64,000 nt of DNA. Source: Monosporascus cannonballus. Its lineage: Eukaryota; Ascomycota; Sordariomycetes; Xylariales. The notes under the pieces are model-generated. The model was not told the origin of the DNA. It saw only the letters and a list, made by a program, of their open reading frames with translations, and did no database searches. The stretch is taken from the NCBI GenBank assembly GCA_004154925.1, contig QJNS01000028.1, positions 186,001 through 250,000 on the forward strand, given 5' to 3'. Of this stretch, positions 43,514 to 64,000 are shown in pieces (position 1 is the first letter of the stretch; each line of letters starts with the position of its first letter). The translations under genes were made by a program, and so were the position numbers.

Positions 43514-44637
43514 TCACTGAGATTCATAGTGCGCGACGTAGGCGACCTCCATCATGTTGCCCCACCAGTCCCAGGTCTGGTCGTTCGGCGCGCCGGGCCA
43601 GTTCCCGCCGACGGCGACGTTGAGGATGAAGTGTAGAGGCCTGGCGGCGAGGGACTCCCAGATGCCCTGACCGAGCTCCCGGGCGGCGACGCGGTGGAAC
43701 TGCCGGCCGTCGACGAACCAGGTGAGTGATTCGTCGGCCCAGTTGCCCGGCCTGCGGTCCCACTGCACGCGCCACGTGTGCCAGCCGTTGTCGAAGAACT
43801 CCACCGAGGCGCCGCGCCCCTGGGGCTCCCGGCACGCGCCGCCCGGGTACACGTCGCAGTGAATCGTGCCGTAGCCCGTGGTGGGGCCGTTGACACGCTC
43901 CATGATGTCGATCTCGCCGCACGCCGGCCAGTTGACACCGCGTCGGACCGAGTCACCGATAATCCAGAAGGCGGGCCAGATGCCTATTTTGCGGGAGTCA
44001 GCAGTTGTCTCATCAAAAGCGGCCAGGGGGGGATCTAGCGACATAGGGGCATAGATGCATAGATTCACACGTGGGAGAACACCGCCTTGCGCGAGCGCTA
44101 CTGACCTTGCTTGTTGCCGTACGGGGCATCGCCGAAGCGGATCTTGGCTTCGGCCAGTGTGACCTTACCATCGGTCGGCGTGAACGTGTACCACGACTCG
44201 ACACGGCCCGAAGTCCACTGGCCGGTGGCATGGTTCAGCACTGGGACGATCTGCAGCGTGCCGCCGCCGCTGATCTGCATATTCTGCGTGGACCGCGTGT
44301 ATTTTTGCCACTCGTTGTTGACGTTGATCTCGGTTATGATCTCCCAGTTGGCCTCGTTCACCATCTGGCCGGCGTTTCCCCAGAACGGCTCCTGCCACTT
44401 CAGGTTGAATCCGGCATAGCCCGGGGACCACTCGTTGATAACGGGGAAGTCATCGCTCGAAGTAGCGTTAGGACTCGGCTTGATCGGAGTCGTATAGATA
44501 GCCTCGGCGTGAGACTTGTCCACAGGAACATCGTCGCCTCCACGAACGAGAAGAGATCTCGCCGACACCGTCGCAGCGGCGAAGAGCGCAGAGCTCAGAA
44601 CTCTAAGCGACATGGTAAAACCTTGTAAGGAGCGCAA
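43514..44637 (-). CDS. GH16 family endo-beta-glucanase-like secreted enzyme
   Basis: Glycoside hydrolase family 16, the clan of beta-1,3(4)-glucanases (laminarinase type) acting on beta-glucans outside the cell. Two exons: 44637-44106 and 43983-43514. The 122-nt intron (GTCAGT...ATAG) joins GNKQ to GIWPAFW in phase 1, exactly across the expected family motif. The second Met (44613) is the likelier start: it is followed at once by a signal peptide (hydrophobic LSSALFAAATVSA), giving 325 residues. From that start the catalytic motif GEIDIME places the nucleophile at Glu193, Asp195 between, and the acid/base at Glu198; WPAFW precedes it and NVAVGGNWPG follows, both typical. No C-terminal carbohydrate module or GPI signal is visible. 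Precise substrate cannot be read from sequence. Confidence 0.9.
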
Positions 44638-47246: not shown

Positions 47247-49221
47247 TCAGCTTCGGAAAAGCCGAAGGCCATCCTCTTCGACCGAGATGCCGCCCATTTC
47301 CTGGTCGGACACCGCTTCCTCGTCGAGCTCCATCTTCTGCCCAAAGAGGCTGCCAAAGAGCCGGTCGATGGCGCTCTCTTCCCAGGTTCGGCGGTCTTCG
47401 GGCGCCATGAAGTTCTGCAGCTTCTCGTGGACGTTGAAGCGCATCTTCCTGCCCTTGCTGGCCTTGGTATCCACGTGCCTCTTCGCCTTGGCTTCCTTCA
47501 CAGCCGTAAACCGTATCATCGCCGCCGATCCAGCTCCGCCCGAGGTATCCGCGGCACGCTGGTCGACGAGCTCCTTGAGTAGTAGCTGGTAGAAATCAGC
47601 ATCGTCGTAGATACTAGGGTCCTCGTTGGCCTTCTTGGCGACTTGCGCTGGCGCGCAAGATCGCGGTGTCCGCGTCCGTTTGATGAGTCGCTCTGGTGCC
47701 TCGAGTTCCTCTTCTAACCTGACGGTGAGAGGCTTCTCTACGCTACCACTGAACTTGCGGGACGACTTGTCGACGGCTCGCATGTTCTTTGCCTTCTGCG
47801 ACCAATTTTCTAAAACCGCCTTGCGTCGGATTTTAGCCTGTTTCTCGGTGTCTTGCATGCTCTCCCAGATTTCTTTGCTGGAGCTGGTAGCATCCACAGT
47901 GCGTTTCCTCTTCTGACCAGATTGCGCTGCCGCACCAGACTGGATGCTGGAGCGGAACCCTTCAATAGCGTTCCACAACTTGAGCGCGGCCGCTTCGGCT
48001 GCCTCATATGGCTCTGATTGATGCTCAGCTTCCTCCAGGGTGTTAAGCGAGTTGATGGCGACCAGTGACTTCTGCATCCGAATTCGAATGTTCAGTAGCG
48101 CATCGAATGCCTTTTGTTGTTGCCGTACAGAGAGACCTTTCGCGACGTCTTTCTGAGCCGCACTTGAAAGAGACTCGGCCACGGAGCGCTGCCCCGCTTG
48201 CACCATGTCTAAGAGCGACGCACGGTTGGCATCCCCTTTTGCTCGATCCCGCTGTTCGTCATCGCTTTCATCATCGTCTTCTTCGTTCTCTTCGTTGCCC
48301 TCGTCTTCACCTTCATCCGCACCACCTAGGCCATTCCCATATTCGAGCCCGTCAAGCTCTTCATCTTCGTGGTCCTCTTCATCCTCGCTTTCCTCTGCCT
48401 CATCATCTAGAAAAGCAGAAGCAGGGCCATTTCGCAAACCGTATTCAGAGTCAACGTCCTCGTCGGACTCTCCCTCTTCCTCTTCTTCGTCTTCGAGGTC
48501 GTCCTCCCCACTTTCCCCCTCCTCCTCTTCGTCGGAGCCCATGAAGTCCGCAGCTGTCGGGCGCGTTACACGCTTCCCTCTGTGGGGCAAAGTCTGAGAG
48601 CTACCGCGAAAGGTGAAGCCCTTGAACTTTTCCTCGTCGCTTTCGCCCAATGCGTTGTCGCTATCAATCTCGCCGTCCTCGTCGTCATTCCGGTCCGCTT
48701 CGAGGTCGGCATTTTCGGGATCGTCGTACTCGCTAGAGATGCCATCTAGATCTTCACGGGCATCCTCGAAGTTATCGGAGGGCTCATCACCGCTTTCTTC
48801 CTCTTCGTCATCTTCGTCATCGTCTTCCACTTCAAGGTCGGCACGGCTCACTCGCGCGCCTCGGTACTGCGAGCCGAGGGCCACGGGGTCTTTCCGGCGG
48901 AGCTTGCTTTCGCTACGAGAAGCCAGTCAGTAAGCCGCCTTTTCTTCTTCCAGCCGGACGCGGGTGTGAAGGTCGCATACCCAACGTTGACATAGTGTTC
49001 CGTGGCCGCCTTCTCGTCGGCGCTGTCCTCGCTGTCGGCGGCGGAATCGCTGTCGCTGGGAACATCGGCCTCCGGGTCATAGTCTGCAGATCAATCGCAT
49101 TGTTAGCTCTCTGGGAAACATTTCATAAGAGATCCGATGGGTTCTTTCGCATACCCTTAGCCGGACGGGCTTCCAAGTCGGAAAACTGCCGAGCGCGACC
49201 TCCCGGTTTCGCAGACGGCAT
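47247..49221 (-). CDS. BFR2: BFR2/AATF ribosome biogenesis protein
   Basis: A nucleolar small-subunit processome factor: yeast Bfr2 (human AATF/Che-1) is needed for early 18S pre-rRNA cleavage, working with Enp2 and Lcp5 (known for the family). Three exons: 49221-49155, 49083-48981, 48912-47247, 611 residues. The two short introns (71 and 68 nt) both have GTATGC donors. Splicing gives RPAK-DYDPEAD and HYVNVG-ESKLRRKD, which match the conserved Bfr2 N terminus, so the ATG at 49221 is chosen. Residues about 65-280 are a long acidic, Glu/Asp/Ser-rich tract. An AATF domain follows (about 280-400, with RASLLDMVQ and AFDALLNIRIRMQKSL). A C-terminal TRAUB domain is near 560-590 (RTWEESAIDRLFGSLFGQ). 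Divergent from IND1, with a 477-bp shared upstream region. Confidence 0.93.
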
Positions 49222-49698: not shown

Positions 49699-50813
49699 AT
49701 GAGACCAACAACCCCCCGGCTGTTTCAAGCCCTCGGAACTCTCCAGCACGAGAACCCCCTGGGTCTGCCGCGGACGGGTACGGTTCCCCGGATGCAGCGG
49801 GGCCTGCCCGAGCGGCGGAAGATAAAGGACGTGGCAAAGGTGGTCGCCGTATCCTCGGCAAAGGGGGGCGTCGGAAAGAGCACAGTAGCCGGTTCGTAAA
49901 GATATATAAAAGATTATGAGCTTTACGGTTATATATGAACTAATAGCATCCCCTTTCCCACGCACACAGGGAACATATCGCTAGCGTTCGCGAAACTGGG
50001 CTACCGTTCCGGCATCCTGGACACGGATATCTTCGGGCCGTCTATACCGACCCTCTTCAACCTATCCGGTGAGCCGAGGCTGTCATCCAGTGAGTAGAGT
50101 CCTTCCGCCCGTTCCGTGCCTTAGTTGCTAGTCTGATTGGACGGAAACCTCTAACCTCGGAGTAAAGACAACCAGCTACTCCCGTTGTCGAACTATGGCG
50201 TCAAGACCATGTCGATGGGCTATCTAGTGGGCGAAGAGGCGCCCGTGGTATGGCGCGGCTTGATGGTAATGAAAGCCCTGCAGCAGCTGCTCCACGAAGT
50301 CGACTGGGGCGGTCTGGATATCTTGGTACTGGACTTCCCACCGGGCACCGGCGATACGCAGCTTAGCGTTACGCAGCAGGTCGTGCTTGACGGTAAGCGC
50401 AGTTTGAAGGGAGGATATCCGGATATTGCCGACCGGGCGTGGCTAATTATCATGTAGGCTCCCTGATCGTGACTACACCCCACACTCTGGCGGTCAAGGA
50501 TGCAGTGAAAGGCATCAACATGTTCAAGAAAGTCAAAGTGCCACTACTCGGACTCGTACAGAACATGTCACTGTTTAACTGCCCGCACTGCCACACTGAC
50601 ACGGCTGTGTTCGGATCAAATGAGAGGGTGCAGGAAGTCTGCCAAGAGCATTCAATCGACCTCATTGGTGAAATTCCGCTAGACCAGAATATCGGAGATG
50701 ATGGCCAGCGGGGAAAACCCACCGTCGTGTCCGAACCGGAGAGCGATAGGGCTAAGGCTTTCATGAAGATTGCCCAGCAAGTCAGCTCGAAGATAGGGCT
50801 GGAGAATATCTGA
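49699..50813 (+). CDS. IND1: IND1 mitochondrial Fe-S assembly P-loop NTPase
   Basis: Mrp/NBP35-family ATPase that carries an iron-sulfur cluster; the mitochondrial branch (Ind1, human NUBPL) delivers clusters to respiratory complex I. Four exons: 49699-49891, 49970-50089, 50168-50392, 50458-50813, giving 297 residues. Introns are 78, 78 and 65 nt; the first uses a GTTCGT donor, forced by frame. The N terminus ([13 protein letters not shown], Arg-rich, few acidic residues) looks like a mitochondrial presequence, which separates it from cytosolic Cfd1/Nbp35. The deviant Walker A KGGVGKS is at residues 55-61. [13 protein letters not shown] and [13 protein letters not shown] are family hallmarks. 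The CPHC pair Cys221/Cys224 binds the bridging cluster between subunits. An upstream in-frame ATG at 49657 would add 14 residues. Yeasts lacking complex I lack IND1, so its presence implies complex I. Confidence 0.93.
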
Positions 50814-51270: not shown

Positions 51271-52264
51271 TTAGTCCAGCTCCTCATTAGTCTGGTATAT
51301 GTGACGGCTTCTTGTTGGGTCCTTTCGCATGGCCTGTCCTGAACCAGTAAACCCCACTATAGAAAAGTCAGCTTGGACCGCAAAGAATGCAGTGATAACT
51401 GACCTCTGCCATGAACTCCTTCCGGCGTGCGAAACATACTCTCCTTCTTACCCTTATGAGCCTTGGCGAACTTGGATTTGGTATTGAATTCCTGCCACTT
51501 GCTCTTGCCAGCCTCTAGCTCCTTGGTTGCCTTGATTTTCTTGGCTTTAGGTTTTACCTCGTCACCATTATTTAGAGCAGCTTCTCTGTTCTTCTGGGCA
51601 AGTTCAAGATTGATGCTAGCTACGGCAGAGATGACACCTGGGTTTGATGGTGTTGAGGCAATCGGTGGCTGCGGAGAGGCCGTGGATGGTGCTGCATTGT
51701 TCGCGGGCGTGCCATCAACTTTCCTCTTCTGCGCGACTGGTCTGAGGTCTTTAGATCGTAGTTGTTCGGTCGTGTCATAGTTCTTGAACTTCACGATGTA
51801 GATCGGATCCGTAGAAGAGCCGGTGATGGAGGTGATACGCGCTGGATAGAAGGCTCTGTCTCCGGTGACCCACTTTGCCATGACGTTGTCATTCACCTTA
51901 TAATTGACGGGTCCTTGATCTGCCTCCTTCTCCTCTGGGGCGGGCGCTTTCTTGAAAGCGGGGTGGTTCTCTCGTGACCATTTCTCCTGGACCGGTGGTG
52001 GTGATGGAGACTTGGGCTTCGGCGGTGGTGCCTTGGTCGGCTTCAGTTCAGCAAGAGTCTCATCCAGAAGACCGATCGCATCATCTAACTCTTGTTTCAG
52101 GGCAAGCAGCTCTGCATTACCGGGGTCATCTTTGAGACCAGCATTGACGACGTCAAGCTATATCACGTTAGCACGCGAACAAAGGGATGAGGAACGCGTG
52201 AAAGATGTCGCACCTGCTCCTGATACTGCTTGATATCGTTCTCGATGCTTGTGATATCGCTCAT
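51271..52264 (-). CDS. spf30: SPF30/SMNDC1-like Tudor-domain splicing factor
   Basis: The survival-motor-neuron-related splicing factor 30 family takes part in spliceosome assembly; its Tudor domain binds dimethyl-arginine on Sm proteins (family knowledge). Three exons: 52264-52214, 52157-51404, 51356-51271, with introns of 56 and 47 nt; 296 residues. The start MSDITSIENDIKQYQEQ is a short coiled-coil lead that splices in frame to LDVVNAGLKDDPGN. The Tudor domain spans about residues 104-158 (KVNDNVMAKW, RAFYPARI, YIVKFKNYDT). A Lys-rich stretch follows (KPKAKKIKATKEL). The C terminus (KKESMFRTPEGVHG, then after the last intron VGFTGSGQAMRKD) is characteristic of Spf30 and would be missed without that small exon. 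Confidence 0.93.
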
Positions 52265-55411: not shown

Positions 55412-56260
55412 ATGCCGCCCAAACTCGTTGAGAACCCGACGTACATCCTCGCCCCGAACTGGACCTTCGTCCCCGGTGGCCCAATCGCCCTCGGCAATGT
55501 CATTGCCGACCCCTCTCGGCCGCATATTGTGCTGAAGAAGCCGCCTAAGAACCCCGCCACCCAGCCCTCTGTCCAGCAAGTCTCTGAGAAGAACTGGCGC
55601 CTCCACTTAAGCTCCCAACTGAACCTGTCGGCGAGCCTGTGGGCCCAGTTCGTCGAACTCGTGGGGCTCAAACTTGGGGCCAGCCACGGCAGGCACGCGA
55701 GGGCGAGCTACTCGATGAGGGAGCTCGAGACTGTATACTACGTGGAGATGCCGGACTCGGCTTTCGTCAAGGAGTTGATCAAGGACCCTGCTGTGCACGA
55801 GCTGATGCGCCTGGACAATCCATTTTCGCGGCCCGTGTACATGGTCACGGGGCTGAAGATTTCCAGAGGCTTTGTTCTATCCGTCGACAAATCCGGAGAC
55901 AACAGTGGTGGCCTGGGGGCATCGGGACCGGCTGGGCCTGCTACAGCTGGCGGAGGAGTCGATATCAGCGTCAAAAGCGAGAAAGGACTAGGCTTTGAAT
56001 CCGGGAATGACATTATATTTGCGTACCAGCTTGTCAGAATTGCTCCGAAGGGCTGGAAGGAGAAAACTTTCAAGCTGAGGGAATACGCTCCCTCAGCTGC
56101 CTTTCTGAGCGACGGCGATGACAAGGACGAACAGGAGATGGAGGTCGAGTCAGACTTCCTTGAGATGCAGGATTTGGAGGATCCAGGGATGGGTTTCTCA
56201 AGCACAAAGGTTCTGAACGGATCTATGGAGTACAGTTGTATCGCATTCGAGGATGAATAA
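55412..56260 (+). CDS. Fungal gasdermin-like pore-forming protein (HET-Q1/RCD-1 type)
   Basis: A single-exon protein of 282 residues starting in good context (CGAAAATGCC). No signal peptide or membrane helix. The features that suggest the fungal gasdermin-like family are its length, the middle PVYMVTGLKISRG (residues 141-153), a Gly-rich loop (161-182), GGVDISVKSEKG and DIIFAYQLVRI (about 181-210), and an early DPSRPHIVLKKP stretch (33-44). After residue about 225 the sequence becomes strongly acidic (DGDDKDEQEMEVESDF) to the end. In Podospora HET-Q1 removal of a roughly 5-kDa C-terminal tail by a subtilisin-like protease activates membrane pores and cell death. Here the next gene, 62 bp away and tail-to-tail, is exactly such a protease. 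The family call is from motif memory and context. Confidence 0.68.
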   Translation: MPPKLVENPTYILAPNWTFVPGGPIALGNVIADPSRPHIVLKKPPKNPATQPSVQQVSEKNWRLHLSSQLNLSASLWAQFVELVGLKLGASHGRHARASYSMRELETVYYVEMPDSAFVKELIKDPAVHELMRLDNPFSRPVYMVTGLKISRGFVLSVDKSGDNSGGLGASGPAGPATAGGGVDISVKSEKGLGFESGNDIIFAYQLVRIAPKGWKEKTFKLREYAPSAAFLSDGDDKDEQEMEVESDFLEMQDLEDPGMGFSSTKVLNGSMEYSCIAFEDE

Positions 56261-56322
56261 GAACAAGGCGAAATATGAAGCCTTGGTTAGAGTGCCTGTG
56301 GCTACTATCATAACCAATCCTC
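56261..56322. other. 62-bp convergent spacer of the gasdermin-protease pair
   Basis: The two stop codons are only 62 bp apart on opposite strands, so the 3' untranslated regions must overlap. Antisense overlap of the transcripts could couple their expression (inference). Confidence 0.6.
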
Positions 56323-58634
56323 TCATGGTAAGCCTGACATGACGCCCTCTACAACACCCACGCATCTCGCCCCATTGTTGGCAAATAGATCCCATACATG
56401 GAAGTAGTATCGGTCATTTCCTCTCTTGACCGCCTCGGCCTTCAACAGCTCACGTATGCCTGCCGTAGTGCACAGTTTTCTCCTTGCCGCCTTGTCACCA
56501 GTCTTGTATCCCACCCACTGCATGATCATGGCGACCATTCCAGCCATGATTGGTGTAGCCACGGAACAGCCTGAACCACTTTCTCCCAGCGCGTATGGCA
56601 CGTTCTGACCCAGAGTGCCACAGAGTGGGAGGCCTTCGTTCATGCGCATTGGCGGCGGATCATAAGCTCCCACAAAGCTTCCTAGGCTGTCAGTTCCTCG
56701 CACCGAGATGACCTCGTGCAGGTAGGCGGGAAACAGCTCCCGCTCGTTGGAGCCGTTGTTTGCTGCGGCAGCAAAGAACAAGACTGGTCGGCTCTCTCTG
56801 AGCTGGGCATCGAATATTGCCCTCTCGATGGACGGGATGGCCTCTCGAAACCCGAAGGACATGCAGACGATGTCCACATTCCAGCCCTCGGGATTCTGGG
56901 CGTGTTCAATGGCCTGGTGGAAGGACTCTTAATTCACTGCTCTAACTCGGCTGACTTCGATTGCAACGCACCTTTTTCACATTCTCCGCTGCAATCCCCA
57001 GCTCAGGAGCTGCCTTAGCGATGCGGGCAATGAATATTTCGGCGTTTCTAGCTGTCCTGAGGAGCAAGGATGATACCATCGTCCCATGCTTATTGAGGTC
57101 TTGGTCGATTGGTTTCGGGGAAGACCCTGCAAAGTCGCGCCAGTGTTCCTTCTGTATGCGTTGACGCTGCCCGGGATAGCTAAAGTAGCTCCCGTCGGGG
57201 CTGCAGCCGGTGTCGAGTACGGCAATCCTGATTGGATTCACATCTTTTGGCTTTGGAATCGATGCGATTAGTCGGTTCAATTCGTCAATCCTTCGGAGCC
57301 AAGCATCTGCTCCCTGCCTGCAAGATACAGTAGATTAGTAAGCGCAAACTATGTTCTCTGGAATAAAGCCCGCGGTTGAAAAGAGCAAGCAAGCGAAGGA
57401 TAATGGAAATATGTAGATGCGCTTACGTTCCACCAGCAAGAGCGCTCGCGTCTGGGTGACCTGTGCCAGCGTCACCAGAGGCTGAAAGATTTGACATCAG
57501 TTCCGAAACATCGTAATCGCCATCCTCCTCCGCACTCAATAATAAACTGGATACCCGGGCATGGTGATTCTCGTCGGCGAGAGTCAGGGGCGTCTTCTTG
57601 TCGTTATTTCTAGCCTTGCAATTCGCGTGTCGATCCAACAGCAACTTGACCACCTTCCAGTGTCCGTTGGCAGCGGCGAGATGCAACGGAGTAGAACCAT
57701 CCCTGCTAGTGGCTTCGATATTCGCCCCGTAGTTCAACAAGGTGTGAACGATGTTGGCAAACCCCTCGGATGCAGCATGGTGCAAAGCAGTCAAGGCGGC
57801 GCCGTCCAACTTTGCCTCCATGGGAGCGCCGTTGAGCAAAAGAAGCTCTACGAGAGGGTGGTGCCCATTTGTGGCAGCGATGTGAAGAGGCATACGTCCG
57901 TTGATGGAGTGTGCGTCCACACGACAGCCGCGTTCCAGGAGCAGCTTTGCCACGGCTTCCTTGCCTTCCCGTGCGGCTAAAAATAACGGCGTAAAGCCTT
58001 CGTTCGTCCGCTCATTGACATCGGCGCCGGCTTCGAGCAGCGCAGCGGCTGCTTCGACATGACCTACCTCCGCTGCCTTATGCAACGGGGTTCGAGTGTT
58101 CTCGTACAAAGCCGCGATATCAGCGCCATGCTGGGCGAGGAGCCTTACTACCAAAGCGTGGCCATTAAATGACGCGGCATGGAGAGCTGTCCAGCCATTT
58201 TCTTTGGAAGCATTGATATTAGGTCTGCGATCCAACAACACTTTCATGACAGCGATGTGACCTTTGCCAGCGGCGAAGACCAGCGGTGGGCTATAGCTGG
58301 GAGGACCTGCCTCGATATTGGCGCCGGCATCCAGCAAAGCTTCCACCACTTCGGGGTAGTTCCTGAGGCAGGCTTGCTGCAGGGGCGTTCTTTTCGATAT
58401 TTCGTTTTCCGTCTTGCTTTCAAATTCTCTTTCGAGGAAAGCGTGATGCTGGATGAGCAGCTTGACGATTGCTAAATGCCCGTTGAAGGCAGCCGAGTGA
58501 AGCGGGGTCCAACCCGCGGCCGTGTGGACGTCGGGGTCTGCACCTCCCTCTAGCAAGCGCTGCGCATGGGCGAGTCGACCGCTACGCGCGGCTATAAGCA
58601 AAGGGTTAGAAAGATCGACCACAGCTGATGCCAT
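56323..58634 (-). CDS. Ankyrin-repeat subtilisin-like serine protease (candidate gasdermin activator)
   Basis: Three exons, 58634-57427, 57317-56972 and 56925-56323, with introns of 109 and 46 nt, encode 718 residues. The ATG at 58634 (ACAATGGC context) is preferred over one 21 bases upstream. Residues about 10-370 are 11 ankyrin repeats (TPLHxAAxxGH...VVKLLL), then an acidic, Ser/Gly-rich linker to about 405. The S8 peptidase domain follows, with triad Asp438 (IAVLDTG), His480 (NKHGTMV) and Ser639 (GSGCSVATP) and oxyanion Asn574 or 575 (FAAAANNGS). The Ser motif has Cys where Thr is usual. There is no signal peptide, so it is cytosolic. It has no NB-ARC or NACHT domain: the ankyrin array probably senses or holds the trigger. 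Convergent with the gasdermin-like gene, as in HET-Q1/HET-Q2. Confidence 0.9.
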
Positions 58635-59100
58635 TGTGTGATGGCAGGGGCACAAGTCCTGAGGTGTGAATTTGAAGTGAAGGTCGAAAAGCCGATATTA
58701 CGGTAAAAGTTCGTGAAGCGCTATGGCACAATGAAGACGGCGAAGGTCCCCATGCCGACAGAGGGCAAGTTCAGGAGCCATCTAATAACACCGAGGGCTA
58801 AACATTGGGCACCAATAGCCAAGGAAGCTTGAAGTCGAACAGATGGGAGCGAGGTCGCGAAAGTAACGTCGTATTTGGCGTAGCGATGCAAGACGCAGCC
58901 TGTGGCGGCATCGCGCGGTAACTCTGGGGATCAGACACACTGTGTATCATTTATGGCTTAGTCCGCGTCACATACGGCGCTGAAAAGTGCAGCTCGTTTG
59001 AAAGGGGTTGCCGAGGACGGGTACGGCATCCGAAGGGGCGTATTCCCCCATTTCAATATATTTCGGCAAAACAAGGCTTTATGTGTGCGCCTCTTACAAA
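58635..59100. promoter_or_regulatory. Upstream region of the ankyrin-subtilase gene, edge of the gene island
   Basis: Balanced composition up to about 59090, then abruptly AT-rich. It must contain the promoter. No TATA box or repeated operator stands out. Confidence 0.4.
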
Positions 59101-60600
59101 GGAAATCTTCATATAACCATCGTTTCAATCAATAAACAATGTAATAATTTAAATTAAATACTCTAGGTGTTGGAATTTTAAGTTTGTAAACCGAATCATA
59201 TCTTATTTATTTTACTCTACTTTGTTTATTTTACTATTTCTATTATTTTATTTACGTATATAGCTTATTTGTTGTCTTAATATATTATATACGGCTAATA
59301 ATTATTGTTTCATTATAGCCTATACTTAGATTCGAACACTACATTAAATAATGTTTAGTAATTAATAACTTTAATTTTAAGAAAAATTTCCAGCATGAAA
59401 TACTTTTATATTTTTTTTATTAAAATTATCGGCTTTGCCTTATTTACTTACCTTTAATCAAAAAATAAAGCCGTAAAATATTAACAATAATTTTTAACCG
59501 CGGCAAAAGTACTTCGAAAATATAGGGGGCTATTATAACGAACCTGTTATACATCCACCTGGAGGTATAAGCAGTATCCGAAAAAGGTCTTAATTTGCAA
59601 GTAATAATAAGGCGAAAAATAATTTAATATATTCGTTAAGGAAATTTTAAGGTATTCCTTTTTTAATTAAAAAACGGTATAATTATTTTTAGCTAAGAAT
59701 TTAAATTAATAATTAAAAAGCGAAAAATTAAATAAATAATTATTTACATAAAAAACTTAAACCTTATATATCTTTTTTATTCTTTATATTTTTTATAATT
59801 TCTAAAGATTTCGAAAAATTATAATATTTATCGTTTACGAATTTCCTAGTATTTTTGGAGATTGATAAAGACCCGAGGTTTTATCCGATAAAAGGTGGAG
59901 ATCCCGAACGTCTCCAATTTCCTGGGCCTCCTTTAGGCCTAATGGAGTCCCTTTTGAGCGTAACATTATTCCTTCCTTTCCAGGATCTTTGTCCCCAAAG
60001 ATAAAAAAAGTAAGTCCTTAACCTTTTTTTTTTTTTTTGCGTTATAGCATTATATTTGACCATATTGGATAAATCTCGAAAACGTATCAAATTTTTTACT
60101 GAAAATTGTTACGAACTGATTAAATCGATTTTTTAATTTGGTTTTGAAATTATGCCGTATACGCGTTATTTCGAGAAAAAGTTTTTTTGCAAAATGTTAA
60201 AAGGTCGAAAAAGTTATTAAAACTATTTGGCGGCTAATATTTAATTTTGCAATAGGAATTATATTTCGCTTTTATCGTTTAAAAATATCCGGGCCGAAAA
60301 GTTCCGGATAAACCGAAAAAAACGTTTGATTATTTAATAATTCTAAAAATTATTTAATTATATTATTTAGTTGGATCGTTAATTTGAATAATTATATTTT
60401 AAAAAGGTGTTATTTATTTAAAGGAGACTTAAAAATATGGATAAATTAAAGGAACGAGAAAAATTGGATACGGAGAAAAATTGTAAAAAAAAAAAGCAAG
60501 CATAGTTTGCTTTAAAGCTAAATGCGTTAATGGAGGTATTTATTTTTTTCGATTAGAACGCCGTAAGGATTAATTTAAGTGGGGGACCGTTATTGCTTAC
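59101..60600. other. AT-rich RIP-mutated sequence, probably 3' LTR area of the next element
   Basis: Strongly AT-rich with stops in all frames, so likely the LTR side of the minus-strand gypsy element to the right. One GC-rich island at about 59875-60000 (ggtggagatcccgaacgtct..., ending in a run of about 16 T) stands out as unmutated. LTR borders could not be fixed. Confidence 0.45.
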
Positions 60601-63600
60601 GATTTTAGTTATATTAAAAACGGTCGGTCAGGATTCTGGCGGTAAAACGTCTTAATTAGGTTTATCGTATTTATTAAATAGTTAAATGGTTTTTACGTAT
60701 TTTTTTTAATATAAGTATTCTTTTTATTTAATTAGATATTGGATTTTACTTTTAATTATTTTAAAATCTAATATTTATTTAACTTCGTATTCGTCAGAAT
60801 TTTTTTCGAATTTTAAATTTATTTTTAACGGGGCGTTCTTAGGTATTAATTTAAATAAAGAAATATGGAAAACAGGGTATATCTTTATATTTTTAAGTAA
60901 TAACAATTTGTAATTAATTTTAGAAATAATTTCGTTAATTTTGAACAGTTTAAGCTTTTTAAAATTAAATTTATTATTAAGTTTTTTTATTTTGATTTAT
61001 AAGATATTCGAAATTACGTTTTGTTTTTGGCGTAATAAATAAACCTTATTTCCTTTCGTTAAAATTAATTTCTTAATTCTTTTTTTATTATAATACTAGG
61101 TTATCCGTTATTAAAAAAATCGCAATTTATTTTAAAGACGGGTCTGGATTATTTTGATTTTTATGGTTAATATTTTTGTTTTTGGGGTAATTATAATAAT
61201 TTTTAGTACTTTATTAAGCGGTTATTTAGGTCGTTTTATTTTTATATTATATTTATATATAATTATATAAAGAGATACGCCTATATTTTCGTTAATTAAT
61301 AAGTTATAAGCAATTTATATTAATAATAAAAGTTTTATTTAATTATTTTGCTAATAATTAACGTAATTTCGCAAATATTATTTTAAGGTTTGGTTTAATT
61401 TTTCGGTTTGGTTATCCGTTTAAAAATAATACGTTATTAAAAACTTAAATTTAATATTAATTTATTTAAAAAAGCTGGTACCGAATTTTGAAATAAATAG
61501 CGTATTTTGATTTGAAATAATTTTTTTAGGTATTTTATATTTATTAAGGTATTATTTAATAAAGGTATAAATTAATTATTTTGCCGTTATATTTTTTAAA
61601 AAAAGTAAAAAGTACTTATATTTAGTAAATTTGTTAATAATTATTTATATTTTGTCGTATTTAATTCCAATAATTAGATTTTTAAATGGAGGTAAATTTA
61701 TAATAAAATCTTAAGTTATAATATTTTATACTTTATTAGGAATGTTAGTAAATTGCAATAATCCGTAAGGCTTATAACGTATTGCTTTAGCCTTATTACA
61801 AACGTTGTAATTTTTAATAATTATTTTAACTATACGGCATAACTTAGGGAAGTTATATTTTTCTTGTAGCCGTTAAGTAATTTTAAAAATTTTTTAATAT
61901 TTATACAATAAGTTATTATAAAATTCCTTTACGAATTATTTTTATTAATCCTTAGGAACATAAATTTTGCCATAATATAATAATTAATCTTTGGGTTATC
62001 CTTTTAACTGCTAAATTTTTTTTTGTTTTTTTATATCATAGGAATTCCGGAACCGTATTAAGAGTTCGATGGTTAATTTTTTTATTATCTTATATAGATA
62101 TATAATTCTATCCTTATTATATTATAATATTTATATGCTTTTTTTGGGAATTTTAAAATCGTAATTTCCTTTACGATTAAAAATATCCGCTTAAATATTT
62201 TTTTTGATATAATATATTTTAAAGTTAAATCTAAATAAAAAAATCCACCATTTTTATGTCGTTTATTTAATTTTTAGGCTTTTATAAATCGCGTAAGATT
62301 TTTATGATTAAAGTAAATGTCGAAAGGTTTTTTTTGCTCCGCTAAAAAAAGGTTCTTATTTTTTGAAAATATTAATAATTGTTAATAACTTTTTGTCGTA
62401 AATTTGGTATTTAAGTTTTGCATTTCGGAATGTTTTAAAGTAATATATTACTGGGTATTATTTGCCGTTATTTTTTTGTTATTTTAAAATTACGCCTAAG
62501 GTATATTTTAAAGTATTTATTTTTAATTATTTCGTTTTATTTGGATTTGGCATCCTTACGATAAATCCGCTAATAATTATTTTTTTTAATTCTCGGAACG
62601 TTTTTTTTTATTTTTTCTAGAAATTTAAATTTTTTCCTAACGTATTTTTTAGTAATAAGTTTTATTAAAAGCTTAATTATATTTTTATATCCCTTAATTA
62701 GGCCGTATACGTAATCCGTAAATCCTAAAATCTATCGGATATTTGTAACGGTCGCCTTATTAAGGATAAGCCAGTTCTTAATTGCTTTTAACTTAAAACG
62801 TTAAATCTGAATTTATTCTAATATAAGAATAAATCCTAAAAAATTTAATTTCTAAATATACCATATATTTTTGGTAAGGTTAATTCGAATATTAATTTCG
62901 TTTAAAATTTTAAGTACTTAAGCGATATATTTTTTATGCTTCTTTAGGGTTTCGGAATAAATAAGGATATCGTCGAAATAGATAAATACGAATTTATCTA
63001 AGAATTATCGGAAAGTAATTATTATTAAGCTTTGAAAATTGGCGGAAGCGTTAATAAATCCTATAGGTATTACTTTATATTCGTAAAATCCATATATTAT
63101 TTTAAATACCGTTTTTTCTTTTTCTTTTTTAGCCATTTTGATACGGTAATAATTATCGCGAAAATTAAGCGCCATAAATTATTTAGCTTTGTTAGCATTT
63201 TTTTAAGATATTTATGAAAATTAAGGAATATTTATTTTTGATTATGATATTATTTAACTGTTTATAATCGATTATTTTTTGGTAAATAAGGTTTTTATCT
63301 TTATTAATTTTTTAATTGTTATTTTTGGTTTTTAATACTATAAGGATTAAATATCTAATAAAAGAATTAAAAAATTAAATATATTTTTTTAAATTTAATT
63401 ATATATTTTTCCATAAAACTTTTAACTTTTTTAAATTTATATAATAAATTTTGTAAAACTTAGGATAATTCCTTTTTTTGATAAATATCCGATAATTCTA
63501 TTAACCATATAACAATAGTTCGTAATTTCTTTTGTCCTTAAATAATTTTTTAAATTTTTGATATTCCGGAGGTACCGTAAAGATCTAATTAAGAACCCGT

Positions 63601-64000
63601 ATTTCCTTAATAATATAACAAATTTCTCGATTATTTTTATTTAATATTTCGTTTTAAGAAAATATTTGCTTTTTCCAATTAATCCGTAAATTACTGGAAT
63701 AAAGCTAAGGTATTTTTAGGATAATATCGTATCCGGGGGTGTTAACGGTATCCAGTAAAATACATTTTTAATATTTTTAAATTTATATTGGGAATTTTTC
63801 CGTTTTTCGAAAAATTCGTCCGTTTTTATAAGTAAATAAGTTGCCGTCCACCGTACGTAATTTATAAAACTTTAATTTGTATTTTTAGAAAATCTGATAT
63901 TTTTCCGTTATTCCAAAAAAAATAAAATTATTTTTTATTCCGGAATTAATTATGGCCTTAAATATTTTGCCTTTATATCGGAAGAAGATTTTAATTTAGT
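60601..64000 (-). pseudogene. Chromodomain Ty3/gypsy pol relic, minus strand, cut by window edge
   Basis: In element direction: RT with an intact YFDDILIYS box (62950-63005) and the following FLGF motif, RNase H region, integrase with TDNQTEKLNQTLK (about 61390-61440), a KKLGPFKI-type GPY/F segment (about 61020), and a chromodomain (EYEVK*ILDF) at about 60650-60800. Stops from RIP throughout. The sequence differs from elements A-E, so it is a separate chromovirus family. Its 5' half lies right of the window. Confidence 0.78.

Follow-up and report, generated by a model that had tools for sequence, protein, structure and literature searches.

A convergent gasdermin and ankyrin-subtilase gene pair in Monosporascus cannonballus as a candidate cell-death cassette

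What switches on the sensors of fungal cell-death pathways has been named a major open question (PMC12881547). The window analysed here, a 64,000-nucleotide stretch of contig QJNS01000028.1 of Monosporascus cannonballus, contains two convergent genes, one for a gasdermin and one for an ankyrin-repeat protease of the subtilisin (S8) family, and raises the question of whether the two form a single death-inducing system and, if so, which of its parts stay together and which change. Such a system had been proposed in an original prediction made from the letters of the DNA. Our analysis indicates that the pair is probably a two-gene cell-death cassette, the protease being predicted to remove the acidic C-terminal tail of the gasdermin. 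To this we add that pore protein and protease appear to have been inherited together while the predicted sensor part changed.

The gasdermin and the ankyrin-subtilase

The 282-residue open reading frame (ORF) described in the original prediction, including both motifs quoted from it (one of them DIIFAYQLVRI), lies at 55412-56260 (+). Sequence profiles together with the predicted fold identify its product as a true fungal gasdermin, where the prediction had spoken of a gasdermin-like protein. Searched alone by phmmer, it matches RCD-1-2 (E 1.2e-6), and a family profile of the protein and its relatives matches RCD-1-2 at E 6.8e-18, RCD-1-1 at E 3.5e-16, HET-Q1 (9uv9) at E 5.9e-9 and, remotely, bacterial gasdermins at E 1.3e-4 to 0.017. 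The gasdermin N-domain fold is present in the predicted structure, and all 13 Foldseek matches of this model at E ≤ 0.001 are gasdermins, so that the structural check suggested with the prediction came out in its favour. The profile check suggested alongside it succeeded for RCD-1 and HET-Q1. In Pfam the protein matched zero families at E ≤ 10; the Pfam gasdermin model is built on animal proteins.

In the gasdermin model the core extends to about residue 215 and is followed by a stretch of mainly low confidence, residues 216-243, after which residues 244-282 are predicted to pack once more (Table 1). In a structure-based alignment using 71 of 83 relatives, L232, which is part of the AAFL-x-D motif, is the sole column past residue 210 that is conserved in at least 90% of the sequences. 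The length, charge and predicted packing of the tail are compatible with a short C-terminal inhibitory segment.

The opposite strand carries, at 58634-56323 (-), an intact three-exon gene whose stop codon lies 62 bp from that of the gasdermin gene, which confirms the distance first given between the convergent gene ends. Judged by its sequence, the 714-residue product is an ankyrin-repeat subtilisin-family protease with conserved catalytic residues. Pfam recognised Peptidase_S8 (PF00082, E 1.5e-18) and ankyrin families in a 718-residue splice version, with one further match at E ≤ 0.001, HTH_upst_double_PIN, that remained below its family cut-off. Neither a NACHT nor an NB-ARC domain was found by Pfam at E ≤ 0.001, and the protein does not qualify as a NOD-like receptor (NLR). 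D438, H480 and S635, which we take to be the S8 triad, and N570, presumably of the oxyanion hole, are shared by at least 90% of 33 relatives. In the predicted structure (predicted local distance difference test, pLDDT, 84.9) the residues up to 371 form 11 ankyrin helix pairs, in agreement with the 11 repeats originally proposed; a low-confidence stretch at residues 372-403 and then the protease part follow. Because solely ankyrin-type chains are among the 50 Foldseek matches listed for the whole model, the S8 identity rests on sequence. The window protease differs from the annotated P0084 of Monosporascus sp. MC13-8B, a strain named M. cannonballus in PMC7407469, at 3 positions over 714 residues. 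The original prediction called the protease cytosolic, a placement that would depend on its ankyrin repeats beginning straight away. A reading of the locus as broken genes was ruled out, since both genes are open and the in-frame stops fall within introns.

Pairing, apparent joint inheritance and the changing predicted sensor

The relatives compared comprised 83 gasdermins and 58 distinct S8 proteins (45 + 13), in lists that hold near relatives with one contig per cluster. For ten of the 58 S8 proteins the contig is exactly as long as that of a gasdermin, and an eleventh, P0089, includes a gasdermin in the same predicted protein. Among ankyrin-S8 proteins, six of seven, the window's own counted, have a gasdermin on an identical-length contig, which bears out the expectation that the pairing would recur in relatives. 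In two pairs, Orbilia TWF696_000446/447 and Trichoglossum GP486_003622/003623, the locus tags are consecutive. The pairing spans three Ascomycota classes and is conserved.

Over 11 pairs, gasdermin distances correlated with S8 distances at r 0.82 (0.71 to 0.90 in leave-one-out runs, lowest without either Orbilia). Correlation with rough taxonomic distance was r 0.02 for the gasdermins and 0.13 for the S8 proteins, this distance being a hand-set rank scale with lineages checked for Monosporascus, Orbilia, Trichoglossum and Grosmannia. The partial correlation was 0.83, a value that 0 of 20000 permutations reached, and in 9 of the 11 pairs the nearest relative was the same partner for gasdermin and protease. 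A mirror run with cruder S8 trimming gave r 0.85, with 1 of 20000 permutations as high. The mirror test used 11 of 12 pairs, the lgn pair P0066/P0112 being omitted, and did not include the C265 pair described below.

In the S8 tree, the window protease forms a clade with two Orbilia proteins and those of Grosmannia and Xylaria (support 100/98), and in the gasdermin tree the same five are grouped with four rows without an identified partner (Shimodaira-Hasegawa-like approximate likelihood ratio test, SH-aLRT, 99). Among paired relatives, those closest to this ankyrin clade in the gasdermin tree belong to the DUF7580 pairs from Nemania and Monosporascus mg162 (fork support 95). The Nemania and mg162 proteins, with those of Rosellinia and Madurella, also join the ankyrin clade in the S8 tree, at 100/98-99. 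The gasdermin tree was built from 64 of the first 66 matches (P0038 and P0064 were too short and P0067-P0083 lay outside), the C138 gasdermin and the corresponding part of P0089. In gasdermin and protease alike, Orbilia, a member of the Orbiliomycetes, is a nearer relative of the window pair than are Nemania and mg162. We do not claim horizontal transfer of the cassette: a tree uniting the clade's three ankyrin-S8 proteins from Sordariomycetes without Orbilia was not rejected (p 0.322), and old paralogy explains the closeness of Orbilia equally well.

A single clade for all seven ankyrin-S8 proteins was rejected (approximately unbiased test, AU, p 0.0066), and we therefore take the sensor to have been exchanged, by repeated gain of ankyrin repeats or by gain and loss, both of which are possible. 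One clade for the first six was not rejected (p 0.18); the seventh, the Trichoglossum protein P0129, is a 484-residue gene model starting inside the ankyrin part. The seven-protein test tree left out 11 long or distant rows as well as P0141, which was too short, as was P0118, dropped from an earlier S8 tree.

Between the Orbilia brochopaga proteins P0085 and P0086, identity is 55% in the ankyrin part, 38% in the linker and 86% in the S8 domain, with a step at the domain border, and their gasdermins are 83% identical. Across six proteins the ankyrin part was less conserved than the S8 domain in 15 of 15 comparisons, in 14 of them by just 3 to 15 points. Because ankyrin repeats may evolve faster than protease domains in general, and because the two Orbilia records may come from separate species or be paralogs, the faster ankyrin change is a lead toward immune-type diversification, short of proof. 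In each of 10 pairs, surface-like ankyrin positions, a set that we assume from DARPin design, differ more than the remaining ones (odds ratio 1.7-3.4). This was not counted as evidence for positive selection on the binding face, since every ankyrin protein has constrained framework positions and the position set is an assumed one.

We give less than even weight to the broader and tentative idea that gasdermin and protease domain form a fixed co-inherited death core with exchangeable sensors (ankyrin, DUF7580) that were swapped more than once, the ankyrin array outpacing the core in the manner of an immune receptor. If true, the window protein would combine receptor and executioner protease in a single ankyrin molecule that detects an intruder directly, with no NLR involved.

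Predicted mechanism and competing explanations

In Podospora anserina, the 388-residue S8 protease HET-Q2 cleaves the 278-residue HET-Q1 at F238, by which 40 residues or about 5 kDa are lost (PMC10989679), and het-Q1 and het-Q2 are idiomorphs (PMC12881547). The window pair is alike in its short C-terminal gasdermin segment and its S8 partner; it differs in that the protease adds 11 predicted ankyrin repeats and that the genes lie in cis on the same contig, not as idiomorphs of the het-Q type. As idiomorphs, het-Q1 and het-Q2 would not normally occur together in a haploid genome. Because gasdermin and protease in the window are permanent neighbours in one genome, the protease would have to stay latent (or unexpressed) until a cue is bound by the ankyrin array, which would act as a natural lock and sensor; a virus, a bacterium, another intruder or a non-self fungus are candidate cues. 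The active protease would then cut the exposed linker at about F231/L232, a cut after residue 231 or 232 freeing a tail of 5.6-5.7 kDa in which 17 residues are acidic and 2 basic, and the basic N-terminal domain would oligomerise in the plasma membrane and kill the cell. With both genes in cis, the locus resembles a latent sensor cassette more than it does an incompatibility pair.

Several points weigh against a cleavage-activated cassette. The gasdermin model is moderate (mean pLDDT 75.5), its template modelling (TM) scores by query length are 0.24-0.44 across the 13 best Foldseek matches, and the predicted TM score (pTM) of 0.53 for the protease model makes the placement of ankyrin part versus S8 domain tentative. 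Most of the other pairs are defined by equal-length contigs and not by distance or orientation. Partners are also missing: 47 of the 58 S8 proteins have no gasdermin in these near-relative lists, the Madurella ankyrin-S8 protein P0095 has none among the 83 gasdermin relatives, and a further DUF7580-S8 gene of the window's genome, C48 (L023 3379-6142, -), has no gasdermin match within the 8 kb examined. Structural constraints could account for the conservation of the linker motif, and the fungal gasdermin RCD-1 can act without cleavage (PMC12881547).

RCD-1 of Neurospora crassa provides the model for an alternative in which the window gasdermin kills, uncleaved, once hyphal fusion has brought two unlike alleles together, the protease just clearing or restraining it. 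RCD-1 variants are its strongest sequence and structure matches and its closest solved structures, and RCD-1 is activated by pairing of two allelic variants, not by proteolysis (PMC12881547). We regard this alternative as improbable: the window gasdermin has a conserved protease neighbour and its family a conserved tail of ~60 residues beyond the core, including the conserved linker motif, its divergence tracks that of the S8 partner, and no near allele was seen, the 90% cluster of P0001 being one member sequence on three contigs. Somewhat less unlikely is a strict allorecognition (heterokaryon incompatibility) system whose strain-specific forms kill after fusion, as het-Q1/het-Q2 and rcd-1 do (PMC12881547). 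Repertoires do vary within the genus, since no close copy of P0089, the S8-gasdermin protein of mg162, was found in the window's genome, where the best matches reach 45% identity for the gasdermin part and 53% for the S8 part. The window genes, however, lie in cis, the near identity to the MC13-8B protease gives, as a single comparison, no hint of polymorphism between strains, and the window ankyrin repeats, with a mean internal identity of 0.33 and a maximum of 0.52, are not the near-identical repeat copies that incompatibility receptors often carry. Convergent genes share no promoter, which would suit functionally unrelated chance neighbours; this explanation we rejected as most improbable on the conserved pairing in three Ascomycota classes and on a joint divergence independent of taxonomy, and a protease gene is reported to adjoin more than 80% of fungal gasdermin genes (PMC12881547).

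A two-gene cassette triggered by proteolysis, the reading that we prefer, is of a known kind. Fungal gasdermins form two-gene clusters with an S8 or CHAT protease, and these proteases are frequently fused to WD40, TPR or ANK repeats (PMC12881547, PMC10989679, PMC10197012), 18 architectures being counted in PMC10197012. The window pair belongs to the same class as the Q2-L two-gene clusters (Clave et al. 2022, as presented in reviews), that is, a gasdermin with a repeat-bearing S8 protein: its protease has an S8 domain with catalytic residues and a gasdermin well within 10 kb. It is no different in kind and adds a locus and evidence on sensor versus core evolution. The functional reading of the original prediction, a gasdermin-protease death module, would therefore stand, while its claim that the ankyrin fusion is the unusual part falls, given that reviews call such fusions frequent. 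Bacterial gasdermins are alike in fold and in gene clustering with proteases and differ in their remote sequence similarity. Aspergillus fumigatus has a NACHT-ankyrin and a CHAT incompatibility locus, and no ankyrin-subtilisin was found among the A. fumigatus loci in the part of PMC11138114 consulted. As this kind of system has already been described, the surprise for specialists is modest; a compact pair of convergent genes with a defined ankyrin array, and relatives with unequal speeds of core and sensor, makes a tractable system for sensor activation, in which the ankyrin sensor is separable and its ligand can be sought.

Related loci and genomic setting

The genome examined (88.8 Mb in 618 contigs) contains at least three gasdermins, C223 in the window, C138 and C265, each with an S8 match beside it. 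At C138 and C265 the S8 part is directly preceded on its own strand by a DUF7580 match, and we take DUF7580 and S8 to be a putative single gene in each case; no mention of DUF7580 was found in the literature searched. That DUF7580 might belong to the 'kinase-like' domains of PMC12881547 is a guess to which we give no weight. P0089 of Monosporascus sp. mg162 is one predicted protein consisting of a partial DUF7580, an S8 domain and then a gasdermin without its first residues. It probably represents two tandem genes fused by gene prediction, and it may be a genuine protease-gasdermin fusion.

Table 1. Features of the gene pair, of its island and of the related pairs (window positions unless a locus is named)
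Feature	Position	Strand or arrangement	Remarks
Fungal gasdermin gene	55412..56260	+	282 aa, intronless; ATG-to-TAA ORF, RCD-1/HET-Q1/bacterial gasdermin matches, fold
Predicted pore-forming domain, residues 1-215	55412..56056	+	18 D+E, 22 K+R, pI 9.3; structure model
Low-confidence linker, residues 216-243	56057..56140	+	AAFL-x-D motif at 229-234; putative cleavage region
Acidic C-terminal tail, residues 244-282	56141..56257	+	11 D+E, 1 K+R; putative inhibitory segment
Gap between convergent stop codons	56261..56322		62 bp
Protease exon 3	56323..56913	-	S8 domain with N570, S635; stop at 56323
Protease intron 2	56914..56971	-	58 nt, GT-AG; acceptor set by comparison with P0084
Protease exon 2	56972..57317	-	S8 domain with D438, H480
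Protease intron 1	57318..57426	-	109 nt, GT-AG
Protease exon 1	57427..58634	-	11 predicted ankyrin repeats and linker
Glycosyl hydrolase 16	43514-44164	-	ordinary gene of island
AATF/TRAUB protein	47247-48926	-	ordinary gene of island
NUBPL-type P-loop NTPase piece	50397-50813	+	ordinary gene of island
Tudor-domain protein	51357-52157	-	ordinary gene of island
C138 gasdermin-S8 pair	L003 216-5075	tandem	DUF7580 match upstream of S8
C265 gasdermin-S8 pair	L022 1268-5455	convergent	DUF7580 match upstream of S8

The gene pair lies within an island of ~16.5 kb with 52% GC that is flanked by blocks of 22-26% GC. At 1-42000 and 59100-64000, these AT-rich blocks have a TpA/ApT ratio of ~1.1 and a (CpA+TpG)/(ApC+GpT) ratio of 0.59-0.72; the values for the gene island are 0.81 and 1.19. 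Both ratios are indices of repeat-induced point mutation, and the dinucleotide skew of the AT-rich blocks fits this process.
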